Source: Roseococcus sp. SDR (GTDB taxonomy: Bacteria; Pseudomonadota; Alphaproteobacteria; Acetobacterales; Acetobacteraceae). From it: a stretch of DNA of 64,000 nucleotides. The DNA lies in NCBI RefSeq assembly GCF_019083995.1, contig NZ_JAHRCU010000011.1:1-64000 (forward strand), read 5' to 3'. The position numbers were made by a program, and so were the translations under genes. The notes under the pieces are model-generated. The model did no database searches. It saw nothing but the letters and a program-made list of their open reading frames with translations, and was not told the origin of the DNA. This document shows positions 5,144 through 38,163 of the stretch, piece after piece. Position 1 is the first letter of the stretch. Each line of letters starts with the position of its first letter.

Positions 5144-5755
5144 ATGGACCCGCACGCCGTCACCTCCCTCGACCAGCTCCGCGCCCTTTATGACGAGGTG
5201 ACGCCCGTCGCCGCCTCGAAATCCACCGACCGGCTGGATGCGCCGACGCGCGCCTTCATCGCGGCCTCGCCGTTCTGCCTCCTGGGCACACAGGGCTCCC
5301 GCGGCAATCATATCACGCCGCGCGGCGATGCGCCGGGCTTCGTGGAGGTGCTGGACGACCGCCGCGTCATGCTGCCCGACCGCAAGGGCAATAACCGCCT
5401 GGACGGGCTGCGCGACATCCTGGAGGACAACCGCGTCTCCCTGCTTTTTCTCGTGCCCGGCGTGAACGAGACGCTGCGCCTGCATGGGCTTGCCACCATC
5501 TCGACCGACCCGGCGCTCCGCGCCCGCTGCGTCGCCCAGGGCAAGACGCCGACCACGGTGCTGGTCGTCGAGGTGCGGGAGATCTTCATGCAATGCGCCA
5601 AGGCCTTCATGCGCTCTGGCCTCTGGGCCGGGCGGCCGCGCCCGACCGAGGTGCCGACCATGGGGCAGCTCATCGCGGCCCATAAGAAGGGCGGGATCGA
5701 CCCGGCGGAGTATGATCAGGCGGCACCGGCACGGCTGAAGGCCAATCTTTACTGA
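5144..5755 (+). CDS. PPOX-class FMN-binding flavoprotein
   Basis: A 203-residue protein of the pyridoxamine 5'-phosphate oxidase-like split-barrel family, close to the MSMEG_1061 type. Visible marks are [17 protein letters not shown] near residue 50, then [31 protein letters not shown], the strand and loop that bind the flavin phosphate in this fold. The start was placed at 5144 because upstream codons run into the divergent yebC promoter. The substrate is unknown; relatives are predicted oxidoreductases of small molecules. Confidence 0.8.
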
Positions 5756-29949: not shown

Positions 29950-30384
29950 ATGCCTTCCACCCAGCTCACCACCCCCTATGCCGCCCTGCTGCTGCGGCTT
30001 TCCCTCGGCGCGATCATGCTGGCGCATGGCGCCTGGCTGAAGCTTGGCGTCTTCGGCCTCGCCGGCACCATGGGCTATTTCGGCTCGATCGGCTTCCCGC
30101 CCATCCTCGGCGCCGTGGTCGCCCTTGGCGAGACCGCGGCGGGCCTGGCGCTCATCACCGGCGTGCTGGTTCGGCCGGCGGCGCTCCTCAGCCTGCCCAT
30201 CCTGCTGGGCGCGACCGCGATGCACGCGGGCAATGGCTGGCTGTTCACCGCGCCAAATGGCGGGTGGGAGTTCCCGGCCTTCCTGACGGCCGCGATGCTG
30301 GTCCAGGCGGGCCTCGGCGCCGGCGCCCATGCGCTGGATGTCTCCCGCCTGCTGGGCCGGACACCGGCCACCCGCACGGCCTGA
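29950..30384 (+). CDS. DoxX family membrane protein
   Basis: A 144-residue protein with four membrane helices. LLLRLSLGAIMLAHGAWLKLGVFGL near residues 13-37 is the DoxX/YphA signature, with the GPxF-like glycine loop replaced by SIGFPP. DoxX relatives occur in thiosulfate oxidation and in redox-stress complexes, but most are uncharacterised. An AAAGGAG precedes the ATG. A LysR gene is divergent, and doxX genes controlled by a divergent LysR are common. Confidence 0.9.
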   Translation: MPSTQLTTPYAALLLRLSLGAIMLAHGAWLKLGVFGLAGTMGYFGSIGFPPILGAVVALGETAAGLALITGVLVRPAALLSLPILLGATAMHAGNGWLFTAPNGGWEFPAFLTAAMLVQAGLGAGAHALDVSRLLGRTPATRTA

Positions 30385-30390
30385 ACCAAG

Positions 30391-30439
30391 CGGGCCACGA
30401 GCCCGATGCGGAGGCGGCCTCCAGCAGCTGGAGGCCGCC
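30391..30439 (+). terminator. Double hairpin after doxX
   Basis: Just after the doxX stop there is a 5-base stem (30391-30395 with 30401-30405) and then a perfect 12-base stem (30413-30424 with 30428-30439) with a 3-base loop. The sequence following is not a clear T-run, so termination may be inefficient or Rho-assisted. It separates doxX from the radical SAM locus. Confidence 0.6.
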
Positions 30440-30486
30440 GTTGCGCATGCATCCACCAGGCCCGATGGTCACAAGATACAATTTTT

Positions 30487-30548
30487 GGTTGTAAAGAACG
30501 CAATCTTCATGATTGCATTCGTTTCGTCCAAACAACCCTGGATTGCAT
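30487..30548 (+). promoter_or_regulatory. AT-rich upstream region with repeated GATTGCAT boxes
   Basis: This stretch is clearly lower in GC than its surroundings. GATTGCAT occurs twice in direct orientation at 30511-30518 and 30541-30548, exactly 30 bases apart; the first copy is also half of an inverted repeat (GCAATC 30500-30505, GATTGC 30511-30516). A second inverted pair is GGTTGT (30487-30492) and ACAACC (30532-30537). It probably holds the promoter and a regulator site for the following gene pair. Confidence 0.45.
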
Positions 30549-30592
30549 CACAAGGGAATCATCCCGACAGCGCTTGGAGGACGGCAAGATGA
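30509..30592 (+). CDS. Possible 27-residue upstream peptide (weak)
   Basis: A short frame starting at ATG 30509 ends at a stop that overlaps the start of the next gene (ATGA at 30589-30592). The position would allow translational coupling, but there is no visible ribosome site before its ATG, and the frame overlaps the repeated GATTGCAT boxes. It may simply be chance in an AT-rich leader. Confidence 0.15.
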   Translation: MIAFVSSKQPWIASQGNHPDSAWRTAR

Positions 30593-31449
30593 AAACACTC
30601 ATGGTCTTCGGTGGCGGCACCCAAGGGGCCCTGCTCCTCACGGAGGAACGGGTTCTCCCCCTCCCGCCCCTCAAGCCGGAGCTGCTCTCCTCGATCAAGG
30701 CGGCCGGGCGCCTCGTCCAGGCCCTCGCCGCGGCGCAGGAGCGCGCCATGCAGTCCAAGCTCTCCAAGATGGCGATCGGCGCCGCCAACCTGGCCGTGGA
30801 GATCGCGGAGGGGCAATATGGCGCGCTCAATCCCGGTCGCGCCATCATCTACCAGAGCGATGATGGGGGCTTCACCTGCGGCAGCACCGGCAAGCCGCCC
30901 ATCCCCTTCCCCTGGCCGCCGCGCCCCATCAAGGAGCCGCAGGACCTCGTACGCCAGGGCGTGATCGAGGCCGATGTGCTGGAACTGATCCGCACCGCCA
31001 AGGCGGGCGGGCGGGACCTCACCCAGGTCTTCGAGAAGCCGGCCGCGGTCGCGAAGGAACTCGGCCTCAAGCTCAGCGCCAAGAATGCCGAGGCGCTGCA
31101 GCTGCTCGCCCCCTCCAACCTGGCCCGCATCAAGGACCCGGTGGACCAGGAGGTGATGAAGCTGTTCCACGCCGTGCTGAAGGATGGCCGGTTCACGACC
31201 GACTGGTTCGACCGGCCGAAGGCGGTGGCGGACAATCTGAAGGTGAAGATCAGCGAATCCGCGATTGAGAAGATCATCGCCGTCGGCGGCCGCGGCTCCC
31301 TGGCGGATCGCCTCTCGGATGGCGGCTCCGCGATCGCGGCAGGCGTGATCTGGGCGGGCGTCTGCATCGCCATCGGCACGCTCTTCGTCGGCCAGATGAA
31401 CCCGATCGACAGCCTGATCCGCGACCGCTCGGGCGTCGAGAAGTTCTAG
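30589..31449 (+). CDS. Unrecognised protein with two leader-like repeats and a hydrophobic tail; candidate RiPP substrate or partner
   Basis: Not a family I recognise; 286 residues. Residues 130-174 and 189-233 are two 45-residue repeats that align without gaps and share about 14 identities (V..L, GR, F..P.AVA..L.K..S). Their shape recalls NHLP/Nif11 leader segments. Gly245-Gly246 then precedes a hydrophobic stretch (about 247-268) and a short polar tail ending SGVEKF. The N-terminal half (1-120) has a Pro-rich patch near 103-113. A strong GGAGG sits upstream. A B12 radical SAM gene follows after 7 bases, so this may be its substrate or a carrier; that role is inference. Confidence 0.75.
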   Translation: MKTLMVFGGGTQGALLLTEERVLPLPPLKPELLSSIKAAGRLVQALAAAQERAMQSKLSKMAIGAANLAVEIAEGQYGALNPGRAIIYQSDDGGFTCGSTGKPPIPFPWPPRPIKEPQDLVRQGVIEADVLELIRTAKAGGRDLTQVFEKPAAVAKELGLKLSAKNAEALQLLAPSNLARIKDPVDQEVMKLFHAVLKDGRFTTDWFDRPKAVADNLKVKISESAIEKIIAVGGRGSLADRLSDGGSAIAAGVIWAGVCIAIGTLFVGQMNPIDSLIRDRSGVEKF

Positions 31450-31456
31450 CCGCGCC

Positions 31457-33415
31457 ATGGATGCGCTGTTGCCCGAGCCGTGGCAGGATCGCCCCGAGCC
31501 GGAGATCCTGCTGGTCAGCATGCCATGGACCAATGTGATCGAGCCGGGCCTCGGCCTCGCCCTGCTCAAGGCGATCCTGGCGCGACAGGGCGTCGAGGCG
31601 CGGGTGCTGCACCTGAACCTCTTCGCCCTCGAATTCCTGAAGGCCAGCACCTATGACGGCATCAGCGTCGTCTATGCGCTGAACGACTTCCTGTTCAGCC
31701 ACACGCTCGACCCGGTGGTGACCGACGCACAGCGCCGGCATCTGCGCGTGAAGGCCGAGGACCTGGCCTTCGCCGGCGCGCTCGACCCCGAGCGTGTGGG
31801 CTCGGTGGATGTGGTGATCGAGCGGCTGCTGCACCTGCGCGCGGAGGTCATCCCGCACTGGCTGGAACGCTGGGCGGATGAGATCGCCGCCTCGCCCGCG
31901 CGCCTCGTCGGCTTCACCTGCATGTTCGACCAGACCATCGCCTCGCTGGCGCTCTCCAAGCTCGTGAAGGCGCGCGCGCCGGAGAAGCTGGTGGCGCTCG
32001 GCGGCTATGCGGTGCGCGACCCGACGGGCAGCATGCTGATGCACAGCCATCCCTGGGTGGATGCGATCTGCGTGGGCGAGGGCGAGACCACCATCCTCGA
32101 CCTCGTCGAGGCCGCGCGCGGCGCCCGCCCCCTCGCCGCGGTGCGCGGAATCCTGCATCGCGGCGCCGATGGCGCGGTGATCGCGACACCCCCCGCGCCC
32201 AAGGCCGATCTCGATGCCAATCCGGTGCCAGATTATAGCGATTTCTTCGCCGACACGGCGCGCCTTTCGGCCGAATGCCAGGTGGACCTGACACCCGCCT
32301 CCATCCCGGTCGAGAATTCACGCGGCTGCTGGTGGGGGGCGAAGCACCATTGCGTCTTCTGCGGCATCGACAAGCCGGACCTGGTCTACCGCCATCGCGC
32401 GGCGGAGACGGTGCTGGAGGGGCTGCGCACATTGCGCGCGCGCCACGGCATCTCAAGCTTCCGCTTCTCGGACTACATCCTGCCGCACGGCTTCTACAAG
32501 ACGCTGCTGCCCATGCTGGCGGCGGAGCGGCCGAAATTCATCCTGAGCTGCGAGATGAAATCCAACGTGACGGAGGAGCATTTCCGCCTGCTCGCCGATG
32601 CGGGATTCCATGAGGTGCAGCCCGGCATCGAGAGCTTCAGCTCCGAGGTGCTGCGGCGGATCGACAAGGGCGTCACCGCCATCCAGAACGTGTTCACGCT
32701 GAAGCTCGGCCGGAAATACGGCATCCGGATCCTCTACAACATCCTCTACGGCTTCCCGGACGACACCCTGCCCGAATACCGGCGGATGGAGGCGCTGCTG
32801 CCCAAGCTCGCGCATTTCGACCCGCCCGTCTCCTGCGTGCCGGTGCAGGTCACGCGCTATGCGCCGCTGCAGGCGCAGCCCGAGCGCTTCGGCATTCCGC
32901 CCGCGGCGCATGGGCCGACCTATGAGCTGATCTTCTCGCGCGAGTACGTCGAGCGCACCGGCTTCCGCTACGAGGATTTCTGCTACTATTTCGAGCGCGG
33001 CTGGGAAAATTCGCTGCATCTGCAGCAGAGCTACGGCCAGATCCATGACACGGTGAAGGCCTGGGGCATCCCGCAGAACGAGCTCTTCGCGCATCTGCAT
33101 GTGCTGCGACCGCGCGAGGGTGGCGGCGTGGTGGTCCTCGACAGCCGCGGCGGGCAGCGACGCGAACTCGAACTCGACGCGCTGGCCCAGGCCGTGCTGG
33201 AAGCGACGGACCGGCCGGTGACGGAGGCGGCGGTGATCGAGGCGCTGGCCGCTTACCCCGCCGACGCCATCGCCACGTCGTTGGCGGCGCTCGAGGCGGA
33301 GGACATGGTGATCCGCGAGGATGATCGGTTGCTCTCGCTGGTCCTTCCCCGGGCCCCGGCGAGCGAGGGCAGCTATCGCACCGGCGTCACGTTGCCCGAG
33401 GCCGTCCCCGCCTGA
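31457..33415 (+). CDS. B12-binding radical SAM RiPP maturase (C-methyltransferase type)
   Basis: A 652-residue enzyme in three parts. The N-terminal part (about 15-250) is a cobalamin-binding-like domain (ALGGYAVRDP, VDAICVGEGE). The radical SAM core follows, with an unusual Cys motif C-x7-C-x2-C: Cys291, Cys299 and Cys302 in SRGCWWGAKHHCVFCG. This spacing marks the RiPP maturation radical SAM protein 1 family (rSAM_ocin type, related to PoyB/PoyC), whose studied members C-methylate peptides. The end (about 568-636) resembles a PqqD-like peptide-recognition domain. It is seven bases downstream of the 286-residue gene. No transporter or peptidase is adjacent. Confidence 0.9.
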   Translation: MDALLPEPWQDRPEPEILLVSMPWTNVIEPGLGLALLKAILARQGVEARVLHLNLFALEFLKASTYDGISVVYALNDFLFSHTLDPVVTDAQRRHLRVKAEDLAFAGALDPERVGSVDVVIERLLHLRAEVIPHWLERWADEIAASPARLVGFTCMFDQTIASLALSKLVKARAPEKLVALGGYAVRDPTGSMLMHSHPWVDAICVGEGETTILDLVEAARGARPLAAVRGILHRGADGAVIATPPAPKADLDANPVPDYSDFFADTARLSAECQVDLTPASIPVENSRGCWWGAKHHCVFCGIDKPDLVYRHRAAETVLEGLRTLRARHGISSFRFSDYILPHGFYKTLLPMLAAERPKFILSCEMKSNVTEEHFRLLADAGFHEVQPGIESFSSEVLRRIDKGVTAIQNVFTLKLGRKYGIRILYNILYGFPDDTLPEYRRMEALLPKLAHFDPPVSCVPVQVTRYAPLQAQPERFGIPPAAHGPTYELIFSREYVERTGFRYEDFCYYFERGWENSLHLQQSYGQIHDTVKAWGIPQNELFAHLHVLRPREGGGVVVLDSRGGQRRELELDALAQAVLEATDRPVTEAAVIEALAAYPADAIATSLAALEAEDMVIREDDRLLSLVLPRAPASEGSYRTGVTLPEAVPA

Positions 33416-34036: not shown

Positions 34037-34702
34037 ATGGTGCGATTCTCCCGCGTTGGGCTGCGCTATCCGGAAAGCGACGGCTACTGGACCCTCTCGG
34101 AGGTGAGCTTCGCGCTGACGCCCGGCAGCTTCACCTGGCTGCTTGGCCCCTCGGGCGCGGGCAAGTCCAGCCTGCTGGGCCTCATCAGCCTCTCGCTCCG
34201 CGCGACCGAAGGGGAGGTGGAAGTGCTGGATTCGCGCATCCGCCGCCTGCCGCGCCGGGCCTTCCCCGCGCTGCGCCGGCGCATCGGCGTGGTCTTCCAG
34301 GATTACCGCCTGCTGCCGCATCTCTCGGTGTATGAGAACGCCGCTCTGCCGCTGCGCATCCAGGGCCTGACCGAGGCGCGGCTCGCCGCCGATGTGCGCG
34401 AGATCCTGCGCTGGGTGGGCCTGCTGGACCGTGCCGAGGCCCCGCCCTCGACCCTCTCGGGGGGCGAGCAGCAGCGCCTCGCGCTGGCCCGCGCCGTGGT
34501 GGCGCGGCCCGCCCTGCTGGTGGCGGATGAACCCACCGGCAATCTGGACGCCGCTCAGGCGCGGCGCGTCATCAGCCTGCTGCGGGAGATGCACCGCATG
34601 GGAACCACGGTCATCGTCGCCACCCACAGCGAGGAATTGCCCCAGGAATATCCCGCGCCCACGCTCCGGCTCGAAGCTGGACGGCTGGTGAGCCATGGCT
34701 GA
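34037..34702 (+). CDS. ftsE: Cell-division ATP-binding protein FtsE
   Basis: A 221-residue ABC ATPase. Walker [10 protein letters not shown], signature [16 protein letters not shown] and Walker [13 protein letters not shown] are complete. With FtsX it forms the inner-membrane complex that activates peptidoglycan amidases at the septum. Overlaps ftsX by 8 bases. Confidence 0.95.
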
Positions 34703-35546
34703 GGGCCGCCGCCTCAAGGGGCGCGACCCGCTGGGGCTCCGCCGTGCGCTGGCCGACCGGCTGCTGCCGGCGCTGGTCGCCGCCATGGCATTGCTGGCCG
34801 CACTCGCCATCGCGGGCGCCGATGGCGCGGGGCGCCTCGCGGAGCGCTGGCAGCAGGGCGAGGCCGGGCAGTTGCTGCTGCAATTGCCGCGCGAGACGGC
34901 GCCTGAGACGGTGATCGCGCGGCTGGAGGCGCTGCCTGGCGTCACCTCGGTCACCGCCGTGCCGGATGAGCGGCTTCGGCAATTGCTCGCCCCCTGGCTC
35001 GGCGAGGTGCCGAGCCTGCCTTTGCCCCGCATGCTCGCCATCACCCTGCCGGGGGGCGCGGATCACCAGCCGTTGCTGGAGGCGGTGCAGGCGATTCCCG
35101 GCGCGCAGCTCGAATTGCGCAGCGAGGCGGTGCGGCTTGCCATGCGCCTGGCGGATGGCCTGCGCGGGCTCTCGCTCGCCATGCTGGGGCTGATCGGGCT
35201 GGTGGGCGCGGCGCTGGTGGCGGTGGCGACACGCGCGGGCATCGCGGCACGGCGGGAGACCATCGTCATCCTGCACGAATTGGGCGCGCGCGATGCCGAC
35301 ATCGCGGGCCGCTTCGCCCGGCGGCTGGGCTGGCTCTGCTTCCTCGGCGCGCTTCTGGGCCTCGCCATCGCATTGCCCGCGCTGTGGTTCCTGGCGATGC
35401 AGGCGCTGCCTGTCGTGCTGGCGCGGGACGCGCAGATCACCGACCTGCCCTGGCCGCTGCTGGCGCTGGTGCCGCCGACCGCCGCCACGATCGGCTGGCT
35501 CACCGCGCTCATCACGCTGCGCGCCTGGCTGCGGCGCTTGCCCTGA
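34695..35546 (+). CDS. ftsX: Cell-division protein FtsX
   Basis: A 283-residue permease-like protein with four membrane helices (near 25-48, 155-180, 208-232, 253-275) and a periplasmic loop after the first helix. The cytoplasmic FtsE-docking segment is ARREEIV-like (GIAARRETIVILHELGARDADIAGRF), the conserved coupling region. The start overlaps ftsE. The sequence is weakly conserved, as FtsX is in alphaproteobacteria. tsaB starts 26 bases later. Confidence 0.92.
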   Translation: MAEGRRLKGRDPLGLRRALADRLLPALVAAMALLAALAIAGADGAGRLAERWQQGEAGQLLLQLPRETAPETVIARLEALPGVTSVTAVPDERLRQLLAPWLGEVPSLPLPRMLAITLPGGADHQPLLEAVQAIPGAQLELRSEAVRLAMRLADGLRGLSLAMLGLIGLVGAALVAVATRAGIAARRETIVILHELGARDADIAGRFARRLGWLCFLGALLGLAIALPALWFLAMQALPVVLARDAQITDLPWPLLALVPPTAATIGWLTALITLRAWLRRLP

Positions 35547-36605: not shown

Positions 36606-36776
36606 TCAGCGATGGGCGGGCTGGCCGCGCTCGCCACAGGCGTAGTTGTGCGAGTGGACGAGACCGTCGTCGTACTCCTCCGGCCGCGTGGTCGGCGGGC
36701 GATTGGCCATGCGGCCGCGCTCGCTGCAGGCGTAGTTGTGGGAATGCACCAGGCCGTCATCGTGGTTGTCGTTCAT
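36606..36776 (-). CDS. 56-residue peptide with two near-identical His/Cys repeats
   Basis: Not recognised. Two copies of DDGLVHSHNYACxERGx (residues 6-22 and 36-52) share 15 of 17 residues and are 30 residues apart. The two copies differ at seven synonymous sites but only two amino acid sites, so the peptide, not the DNA, is what selection keeps. AAGGAG stands 7 bases before the ATG, a strong ribosome site. His-x-His and Cys-rich content fits metal binding or a modified peptide. There is no signal peptide. It lies between rimI and aceA on the minus strand; 67 bases separate it from aceA. Confidence 0.8.
   Translation of the reverse strand: MNDNHDDGLVHSHNYACSERGRMANRPPTTRPEEYDDGLVHSHNYACGERGQPAHR
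36625..36763. repeat. Two-copy 49-base tandem repeat inside the small His/Cys gene
   Basis: The DNA copies at 36625-36673 and 36715-36763 are each 49 bases with a 90-base period and encode the peptide repeats. Differences fall mostly in third codon positions. Confidence 0.85.
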
Positions 36777-36843
36777 GGCGTGTCTCCTTGGGGTTGGCAC
36801 AGATTGGACGAAGGTAAGCGATGCGTTCCGGAAGGCCGGGCCG

Positions 36844-38163
36844 CTATGCATGATGGAATTGAGCCGCCTCGGTGCTGTCCTTCAGCGCGGTGGTGCTGGC
36901 CTTCCCGCCGCTCGCCGCATTCGCGATCGCGTCGAAATAGCCCACACCCACCTCGCGCTGGTGGCGCACGGCGGTGAAGCCGTTCACCTCCTCGGCGAAC
37001 TCGGCCTGCTGCAGCTCGCTATAGGCGCCCATGCCGCGCTCCGCGTAGCCACGGGCCAGGCGGAACATGGAGAGGTTGAGGCTGTGGAAGCCCGCCAGCG
37101 TCACGAACTGGAACTTGTAGCCCATGGCGCCCAGCTCACGCTGGAACTTCGCGGCCGCATCCACGCCCATCTTCCGCTGCCAGTTGAAGCTGGGCGAGCA
37201 GTTGTAGGCGAGCATCTTGCCGGGGAACTGGCGGTGGATCGCCTCCGCGAAGTCGCGCGCATCATCGAGATCAGGGTCCGACGTCTCCCACCAGAGCAGA
37301 TCGGCATAGGGCGCATAGGCGAGGCTGCGCGCGATGGCGTATGGCTTGCCCATGCCGGGGGTGATGCGGAAGAAGCCCTCCGGCGTGCGCTCGCCGCTCA
37401 GGAAGGGGCGGTCGCGCTCATCCACGTCGCTGGTCAGCAGCTGCGCGGATTCCGCGTCCGTGCGGCAGAGCAGGACGGTGGAGACGCCCTCGACATCGGC
37501 GGCGAGGCGCGCGGCATTCAGCGTGCGGATGTGCTGACTGATGGGCACCAGCACCTTGCCGCCGAGATGGCCGCATTTCTTCTCGCTGGCGAGCTGATCC
37601 TCGAAATGCACGCCGGCCGCACCCGCCTCGATCATCGCGCGCATCAGCTCATAGGCGTTGAGCGCGCCGCCGAAGCCCGCCTCCGCATCGGCGATGATCG
37701 GCGCCATGTAGTGCGTGCGGTCATCGCCCGTGCCGTCATGCCGCTCCATGGTGGCGATCTGGTCGGCGCGACGCAGCGCGTTGTTGATGCGGCGGATCAC
37801 ATTGGGCACGCTGTCCACCGGATAGAGCGACTGGTCCGGGTACATGGTATTGGCGGAATTGGCGTCGGCCGCGACCTGCCAGCCCGAAAGGTAGATGGCC
37901 TTCAGTCCCGCCTTCACCTGCTGCAGCGCCTGCATGCCGGTCATGGCGCCCAGCGTCGTCACCTGCGGCTCGGTGCGCAGCAGCTGCCAGAGGCGGCGGG
38001 CGCCCATCTCGGCCAGCGTGTGCTGGGTGCGGAAGCTGCCGGCGAGGCGGGCGACGTCAGCCGGCGTATAGTCCCGGCGGATGCCGTCGAAGCGGCCGGG
38101 CTCGCCGCCCGAGCCGGGGGGCATGCCGTCGGGCGCGGTCAGCTTGGTGGTTTCGGGGCGCAT
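36844..38163 (-). CDS. aceA: Isocitrate lyase
   Basis: A 439-residue glyoxylate-shunt enzyme that splits isocitrate into glyoxylate and succinate. The signature [13 protein letters not shown] carries catalytic Cys197. [12 protein letters not shown], the metal-binding DAEAGFGG and the C-terminal [11 protein letters not shown] fit the bacterial class. The tail ends AAQFHHA, close to the usual end. No malate synthase is near. A divergent ScfR/RamB-type regulator probably controls it. The start ATG at 38163 is the only good one. Confidence 0.97.

Follow-up and report, generated by a model that had tools for sequence, protein, structure and literature searches.

A rare two-gene locus in Roseococcus pairs a B12-binding radical SAM enzyme with a 286-residue partner and is a candidate RiPP-type maturation module

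Within a stretch of 64,000 nucleotides from Roseococcus sp. SDR (contig NZ_JAHRCU010000011.1, positions 1 to 64,000, here called the window), two adjacent genes on the forward strand encode a 286-residue protein that we call P286 (30589-31449, with GGAGG 8 nt ahead of the ATG) and, after a gap of 7 bases, a 652-residue B12-binding radical S-adenosylmethionine (SAM) enzyme (31457-33415). An earlier reading of the window from its letters (the sequence-only reading) had described this layout, and its coordinates and gap were confirmed. By Pfam, the flanking genes are unrelated: a DoxX gene lies upstream and a zinc-ribbon protein gene, on the opposite strand, downstream. Because both genes are under purifying selection relative to the congener G1074 (ratio of non-synonymous to synonymous substitution rates, dN/dS, of 0.126 over 274 aligned codons for P286 and 0.095 over 520 codons for the enzyme), we regard both as real. 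The pair, with the two genes side by side, recurs across distant lineages. Its parts are as follows.

30477-30493, forward strand: inverted repeat TACAA-N7-TTGTA in an AT-rich stretch ahead of P286
30589-31449, forward strand: P286, the 286-residue partner and proposed long-leader precursor, with the enzyme gene directly downstream in 5 of 5 accepted homologues
30589-30939, forward strand: N-terminal domain of P286 (residues 1-117), predicted by AlphaFold2 as strands, two long helices and strands; no relative found
30859-30921, forward strand: conserved stretch DDGGFTCGSTGKPPIPFPWPP of P286 (residues 91-111), from a four-sequence alignment
30940-31131, forward strand: helical repeat 1 of P286 (residues 118-181), with a weak Os1348/NHLP signature
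31132-31284, forward strand: helical repeat 2 of P286 (residues 182-232), aligned to repeat 1 with hhalign
31285-31446, forward strand: tail of P286 (residues 233-286), the proposed core, marked by low predicted local distance difference test scores (pLDDT), divergence and richness in Ile and Val
31853-32104, forward strand: B12-binding domain of the enzyme (residues 133-216; PF02310, E = 3.6e-8, 33.7 bits against a cut-off of 32.1)
32327-32362, forward strand: cysteine triad C291/C299/C302 of the enzyme (C-x7-C-x2-C) in the sequence CWWGAKHHCVFC
33074-33346, forward strand: C-terminal domain of the enzyme (residues about 540-630), three strands followed by three helices by DSSP of the AlphaFold2 model

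The enzyme matched TIGR03975 (rSAM_ocin_1), described in NCBIfam as a RiPP (ribosomally synthesized and post-translationally modified peptide) maturation radical SAM C-methyltransferase, over the whole profile (1-606 of 606) with 486.6 bits against a cut-off of 281.85 (E = 1.1e-145). It is a member of that family above the curated cut-off and at full length, and peptide C-methyltransferase activity is predicted from its sequence. Its radical SAM domain (PF04055, residues 290-440) scored 8.3e-13 and 49.3 bits against a cut-off of 29.5, and the domains, the triad and the family score agree with the sequence-only assignment of a B12-binding radical SAM enzyme with Cys291, Cys299 and Cys302. The C-x7-C-x2-C motif was found in 15 of 16 aligned enzyme rows; the remaining row, L019, is in the wrong frame (1128 residues there, against 652 for the same locus in the scan of the class), forms a long outlier and was dropped from the 15-row alignment of the C-terminal domain. 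Searched with Foldseek against the PDB, a low-confidence AlphaFold2 model of the enzyme (mean pLDDT 61.3, predicted TM-score (pTM) 0.54) returned only B12-type radical SAM enzymes among its top 16 matches (OxsB, TokK, TsrM, CysS and AprD4; E = 6e-10 to 2e-5, TM-scores 0.31-0.43). A single TIGR03975 match above the cut-off was present in the genome of the window, with two more B12-radical SAM frames far below it, and 8 of 385 genomes of the class had one; at these eight loci, the 1.5-kb flanks that were inspected are too short for naming precursors. As a separate observation, the TIGR03975 enzyme of genome G849 (L021/L022) is apparently split into pieces about 2.3 kb apart, with a 449-residue frame, transposase-like by eye, between them.

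A pattern scan of the species genomes of GTDB 220 gave 116 matches for P286, of which three were confirmed as relatives: L009 (PowLak16 MAG13, a metagenome-assembled genome, MAG), L010 (an Armatimonadetes MAG) and L011 (a MAG labelled Asaia bogorensis, G171). P286 was present in 2 of 200 genomes sampled from the family (that of the window and G171), 1 of 385 from the class (that of the window), 1 of 291 from the phylum of L010 and 1 of 198 from the phylum of L009 (in each case their own), and 2 of 21 from the genus (that of the window and G1074), being not found in the other 19. Because the genome of L009 is outside the 291-genome sample, which probably covers the whole phylum of L010, L009 apparently belongs to another phylum. 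P286 was thus accepted in five genomes, namely that of the window, its congener G1074, the family MAG, the Armatimonadetes MAG and a MAG of an apparently third phylum. The genome of the window holds a single P286 match at E ≤ 10. Three genomes of the family sample gave weak partial matches (E = 0.003-0.007) that were judged to be chance: 94 residues within a 2462-residue frame in G156, 108 within a 513-residue frame containing a stop in G127, and 48 within a 638-residue frame in G097. None of five pattern stretches on viral contigs was confirmed, and no P286 relative was found on plasmids.

In all five accepted loci the enzyme gene directly follows P286, with gaps of 7 (window), 7 (G1074), 8 (L010), 14 (L011, using the start at 5426 read from the sequence) and 15 bases (L009). 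The sequence-only reading had inferred the pairing and named, as evidence that would undo it, homologues occurring mostly without a radical SAM gene; all five adjoin a TIGR03975-type enzyme, and no full-length homologue without the enzyme turned up in the searched samples. In a 16-row tree that includes enzymes near Nif11, pheganomycin-type and CefA precursors, the five P286-locus enzymes form one clade (5 of 16 rows, 100/100 support), and across two trees the support was 100/99 and 100/100. A gene that lies beside a maturase and is inherited with it, as a RiPP system calls for, is present here, and P286 would be its precursor. Among the titles and opening lines of abstracts listed from the open-licence literature, none describes the pair.

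P286 itself matched nothing above a cut-off in Pfam or NCBIfam and no PADLOC phage-defence model, and its only PHROGs match was phrog_17882 (unknown function, E = 0.062); the family is nameless in these four libraries. An AlphaFold2 model from four sequences (mean pLDDT 68.8, pTM 0.46) predicts residues 1-232 to be mostly ordered and residues 233-286 to have pLDDT of 30-39, and Foldseek of this model against the PDB gave 108 matches at E ≤ 10 and none at E ≤ 0.001. The N-terminal domain, with a mean pairwise identity of 48% among the four sequences, has ten-residue pLDDT blocks of 72-92 through residue 100, followed by blocks of 59 and 48. In the same alignment, residues 89-111 reach a mean identity of 88%, compared with 43-50% for the domain and the repeats, with a consensus of GGFTCGS[TN]GKPP (in G1074, DGEGGFTCGSTGKPPIPFPWPP); this stretch could be a modified site or a structural element.

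Because the hhalign score between repeat 1 and repeat 2 (38.4, with a probability of 94% and E = 1.2e-7) is far above the best of 150 column shuffles (15.9), the tandem repeat is real. The Os1348 model NF038399 matched three of four full P286 proteins (best E = 2.1e-4) and three of four repeat-1 pieces (best 6.4e-4), all below its cut-off, and two unrelated models scored about as weakly on repeat 1 of the window (0.0075 and 0.0079); none of the four repeat-2 pieces gave an NHLP match of its own. For P286 of the window the NF038399 score was 16.8 bits, short of the cut-off of 40. TIGR03793 (NHLP) matched one of the four members (E = 0.15), again below cut-off, and in a profile search of the PDB the Os1348 structure 6lk7 came second (E = 0.28) after a ribosomal protein (E = 0.22). 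The Os1348/NHLP signature is a lead from sequence, short of clan membership. The partner that the sequence-only reading could not place therefore reaches no family cut-off, as that reading had it, but is not wholly featureless, since it carries this faint mark of the Os1348/NHLP leader clan; we propose that P286 represents a new partner family, which may resemble NHLP precursors in its working. In the class of the window, NF038399 reached E ≤ 1e-5 in 10 of 240 genomes (L023-L032), always below the cut-off; separately from P286, 9 of these 10 Os1348-family matches lie in frames of 211-422 residues, possibly more long NHLP-like proteins.

The tail has an unusual make-up and is under selection. 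It carries Gly-Gly at 233-234 and 245-246, an Ile/Val-rich segment at 249-267 and the C-terminal end DRSGVEKF. Between lineages, residues 233-275 share a mean identity of 21% (six pairs, five of them at 10-19%), compared with 43-50% in the domain and repeats, and the last 11 residues 47%. Within the genus, the window and G1074 differ at 2 of 54 amino acids, with a dN/dS of 0.049 that derives from 12 synonymous and 2 non-synonymous differences and hence from few events. All four tails contain a hydrophobic 19-mer (Kyte-Doolittle (KD) hydropathy 2.3-2.7), and their best 19-mers have an Ile/Val to Leu ratio of 36:3, compared with 125:136 for 30 control segments (Fisher p = 5e-8, the four tails being related sequences). 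The controls were chosen by hydrophobicity, mechanically, from 77 long frames of the window, which may include false frames. In two rhizobial Nif11 precursors near TIGR03975 enzymes, the tails have 7 Ile/Val to 1 Leu each.

A separate precursor conserved beside the pair, which the sequence-only reading had not seen and had named as evidence against its proposal, was not found: among 367 stop-to-stop open reading frames (ORFs) of at least 15 residues in the 1.5-kb flanks of the five loci, no match between loci appeared in composition-corrected blastp at E ≤ 0.01 (window-G1074 pair excluded), a test that very short or very divergent cores would escape. The flanks are shorter at contig ends, with only 246 bases upstream of L010. 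Matches seen without composition correction were mostly Arg/Pro/Ala-rich, from high-GC DNA, and none survived the correction. Nor was a dedicated transporter or peptidase seen beside the five pairs, in line with the earlier reading, and the clustered C39 peptidase-transporter that marks NHLP/proteusin systems was missing from the flanks inspected. C39 peptidases occur elsewhere in four of the five P286 genomes, with none in G202.

We consider it probable that the pair is a two-gene maturation module of the RiPP type, in which P286 combines a long leader with a C-terminal core and the enzyme acts like PoyC. PoyC methylates valine with methylcobalamin and yields 5′-deoxyadenosine, according to PMC5682303, and long folded NHLP leaders are described in PMC12455567 as working through protein-protein contacts; it is because of the analogy with PoyC and with NHLP leaders that we propose a P286 leader and a Val/Ile-methylated core. 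Residues 1-232 would fold as a long protein-like leader composed of a new N-terminal domain and two tandem NHLP-like helical repeats. This leader would dock on the enzyme, perhaps through its winged-helix-like C-terminal domain, and docking would hold the flexible, Ile/Val/Ala/Gly-rich tail in the active site. There the enzyme would employ methylcobalamin, a [4Fe-4S] cluster and a 5′-deoxyadenosyl radical to methylate unactivated carbons, the most likely target, by analogy with PoyC, being C-beta of Val or Ile. The tail may then be freed at either Gly-Gly by a protease encoded elsewhere, or it may stay attached. That P286 is the substrate, as well as the site and type of the reaction, the release and the biological effect, is what we infer from these lines. 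A bolder version we hold to be doubtful. In it, a mobile, self-sufficient two-gene system would place C-beta methyls all along the Ile/Val-rich, membrane-seeking tail, the large folded partner would never be cleaved, and the product would be a protein whose membrane segment is tert-alkyl-hardened, not a small peptide natural product.

Several observations weigh against a leader-and-core precursor. The five loci amount to only four divergent P286 sequences and the pair is rare. P286 of G1074 starts differently, lacking the first ~11 residues of that of the window. The NHLP similarity reaches no curated cut-off and is confined to repeat 1. Conservation within P286 peaks in the internal GGFTCGS stretch, which is unexpected in a mere leader. 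The first Gly-Gly is missing in L011 and the second in L010, the tails of the window and L010 are 47% identical over residues 233-275, pheganomycin-type and CefA precursors have no Ile/Val-rich tail, and the tail could equally suit a plain membrane helix or anchor. Neither a dedicated peptidase nor an exporter was seen beside the pairs, as judged by Pfam for the window and by eye from ORF lists for L009, L010, L011 and G1074. Only past the zinc-ribbon gene does one meet an ABC ATPase and an FtsX-like permease (34037-35543), and congeners that lack the pair have that region too. The only C39 match in the genome of the window is an exported-looking protein that stands alone, some 96 kb from the pair on its contig. 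As for docking, the C-terminal domain of the enzyme, alignable in 15 rows, is a possible leader-binding winged helix as predicted from the model; its profile reached at best E = 0.019 in the PDB (9sgv, 'Ap3'), with some transcription regulators near E = 1. C-terminal fusions of a recognition element are reported for proteusins in PMC7470986.

Some of these points would be explained if P286 were the substrate, but modified internally at DDGGFTCGSTGKPPxPxPWPP, with the tail as a membrane anchor and the full-length modified protein as the product. The 88% identity of residues 89-111 against 43-50% elsewhere in the domain and repeats, Cys97, which is invariant in the four-row alignment and retained in G1074, the hydrophobic 19-mers (KD 2.3-2.7) in all four tails and the lack of a protease beside the pairs fit such a reading. 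We nevertheless find it unlikely, given that TIGR03975 relatives lie near precursors with C-terminal cores, that the 36:3 ratio of Ile/Val to Leu sets the tail apart from control hydrophobic segments, and that the conserved stretch is partly ordered in the prediction (blocks of 72 and 59), as in a structural element.

P286 could also serve as an adaptor or carrier, in the manner of a discrete recognition protein, for a true substrate, a peptide or small molecule, that is encoded or made elsewhere; its size, its mostly ordered prediction and the absence of a clustered protease or exporter are what this would lead one to see. Yet no conserved small ORF was found near the five loci, an adaptor would give little reason for a disordered tail that has mostly diverged, and because the pair consists of two genes in distant lineages, such an adaptor would need a third partner in each host, so that we rate it as quite unlikely. 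Very unlikely, in our view, is a known proteusin/NHLP system in disguise, in which P286 is an NHLP precursor that was fused or duplicated, with nothing new about it. The matches of NF038399 to three of four members (best 2.1e-4) and of TIGR03793 to one (0.15), and the second rank of 6lk7 among PDB profile matches (E = 0.28), speak for it; against it stand the failure to reach any curated cut-off, an N-terminal 117-residue region that matches nothing, two repeats instead of one, no adjoining peptidase-transporter and a separate enzyme clade.

Comparison with related clusters returns to the proposed leader-and-core module. On plasmids, 54 records matched the enzyme and 5 of these, picked from the top rows, were inspected; each of the 4 that were annotated has a named RiPP precursor in the cluster (pheganomycin type, CefA and, twice, Nif11). 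Clusters with TIGR03975 enzymes resemble the P286 loci in a CWW...C-x-FC type signature and, as in two rhizobial Nif11 precursors, an Ile/Val-rich tail; they differ in that the P286-locus enzymes form a separate clade and their partner is a new 286-residue family. The extras of the known clusters, namely a second radical SAM maturase (L034), an epimerase (L035 and L036), a GNAT protein and an NHLP transporter (L036), are absent here. CefA, a Cys-every-fifth RiPP precursor from a Methylomagnum ishizawai plasmid (L034), is a precedent in size, with 679 residues and a TIGR03975 enzyme in its cluster, but has another sequence, a Cys-rich core and an additional TIGR04463 SPASM maturase. As an observation on the enzyme family, L034 shows a second giant precursor associated with TIGR03975.

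PoyC/PoyB and bottromycin pathways have further tailoring enzymes. These are absent at the P286 locus, and the likeness, set beside by description and not by sequence, lies in B12-dependent radical SAM enzymes with Cx7Cx2C. As described in PMC5682303, this motif is common to polytheonamide and bottromycin methyltransferases, both proposed to methylate C-beta. Os1348/PosA and PflA of the NHLP clan in Pseudomonas are linked to P286 by the weak profile match in repeat 1. By the accounts in PMC7726476 and PMC12636437, they have a structured helical leader and a C-terminal core, an arrangement that is predicted for P286, and, as in the P286 flanks inspected, no protease in the cluster; PflA/PosA are given in PMC12636437 as NHLP precursors without a clustered protease. 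Os1348/PosA differ in their length of 85 residues and their GNAT, HEXXH and nitroreductase-type enzymes, with no radical SAM enzyme among Os1348-1351, and P286 differs from Os1348/PosA and PflA by its extra N-terminal domain and second repeat.

Enzymes that methylate unactivated peptide carbons are sought after and often lie in complex clusters. Here one enzyme and its single, genetically fixed partner form a minimal pair suited to co-expression, with a mass shift as the read-out. A known structured leader, that of MprE7, has 81 residues (PMC12455567). If our proposal is true, structured leaders can far exceed known lengths by way of tandem repeats and an extra domain, and whether leader size decides which beta-branched core residues are methylated becomes testable.

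Among congeners, the pair occupies the corresponding position in G1074, where P286 is 92% identical over 274 residues. At 13 other congener loci, located through doxX, the pair is absent in the 10 where both flanks are visible, 31-870 bases apart, compared with 3.0-3.5 kb where the pair is present; in the other 3 only the doxX side was visible in the stretch available. Either the insertion of a cassette or its loss from most congeners would give such a pattern, and no mobile-element gene was among the Pfam-scanned window genes flanking the pair. The GC content of 30382-30588 is 56%, compared with 70.6% for the whole window, and G1074 has a near-identical copy of the inverted-repeat stretch ahead of its pair. 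The repeat may be an operator or promoter; a sigma-70 scan gave no site at 30477-30493. In pattern scans, the single promoter-like site is within the enzyme gene (0.3 expected) and the single terminator-like site at 30500-30516 (1.0 expected).

Elsewhere in the window, a small frame on the reverse strand (36606-36851), without a match in Pfam or NCBIfam, has an 8-base overlap with the isocitrate lyase frame, at the end of the latter. The small frame contains two copies of DDGLVHSHNYAC[SG]ERG, a Cys/His-rich tandem repeat that is retained in G1074.

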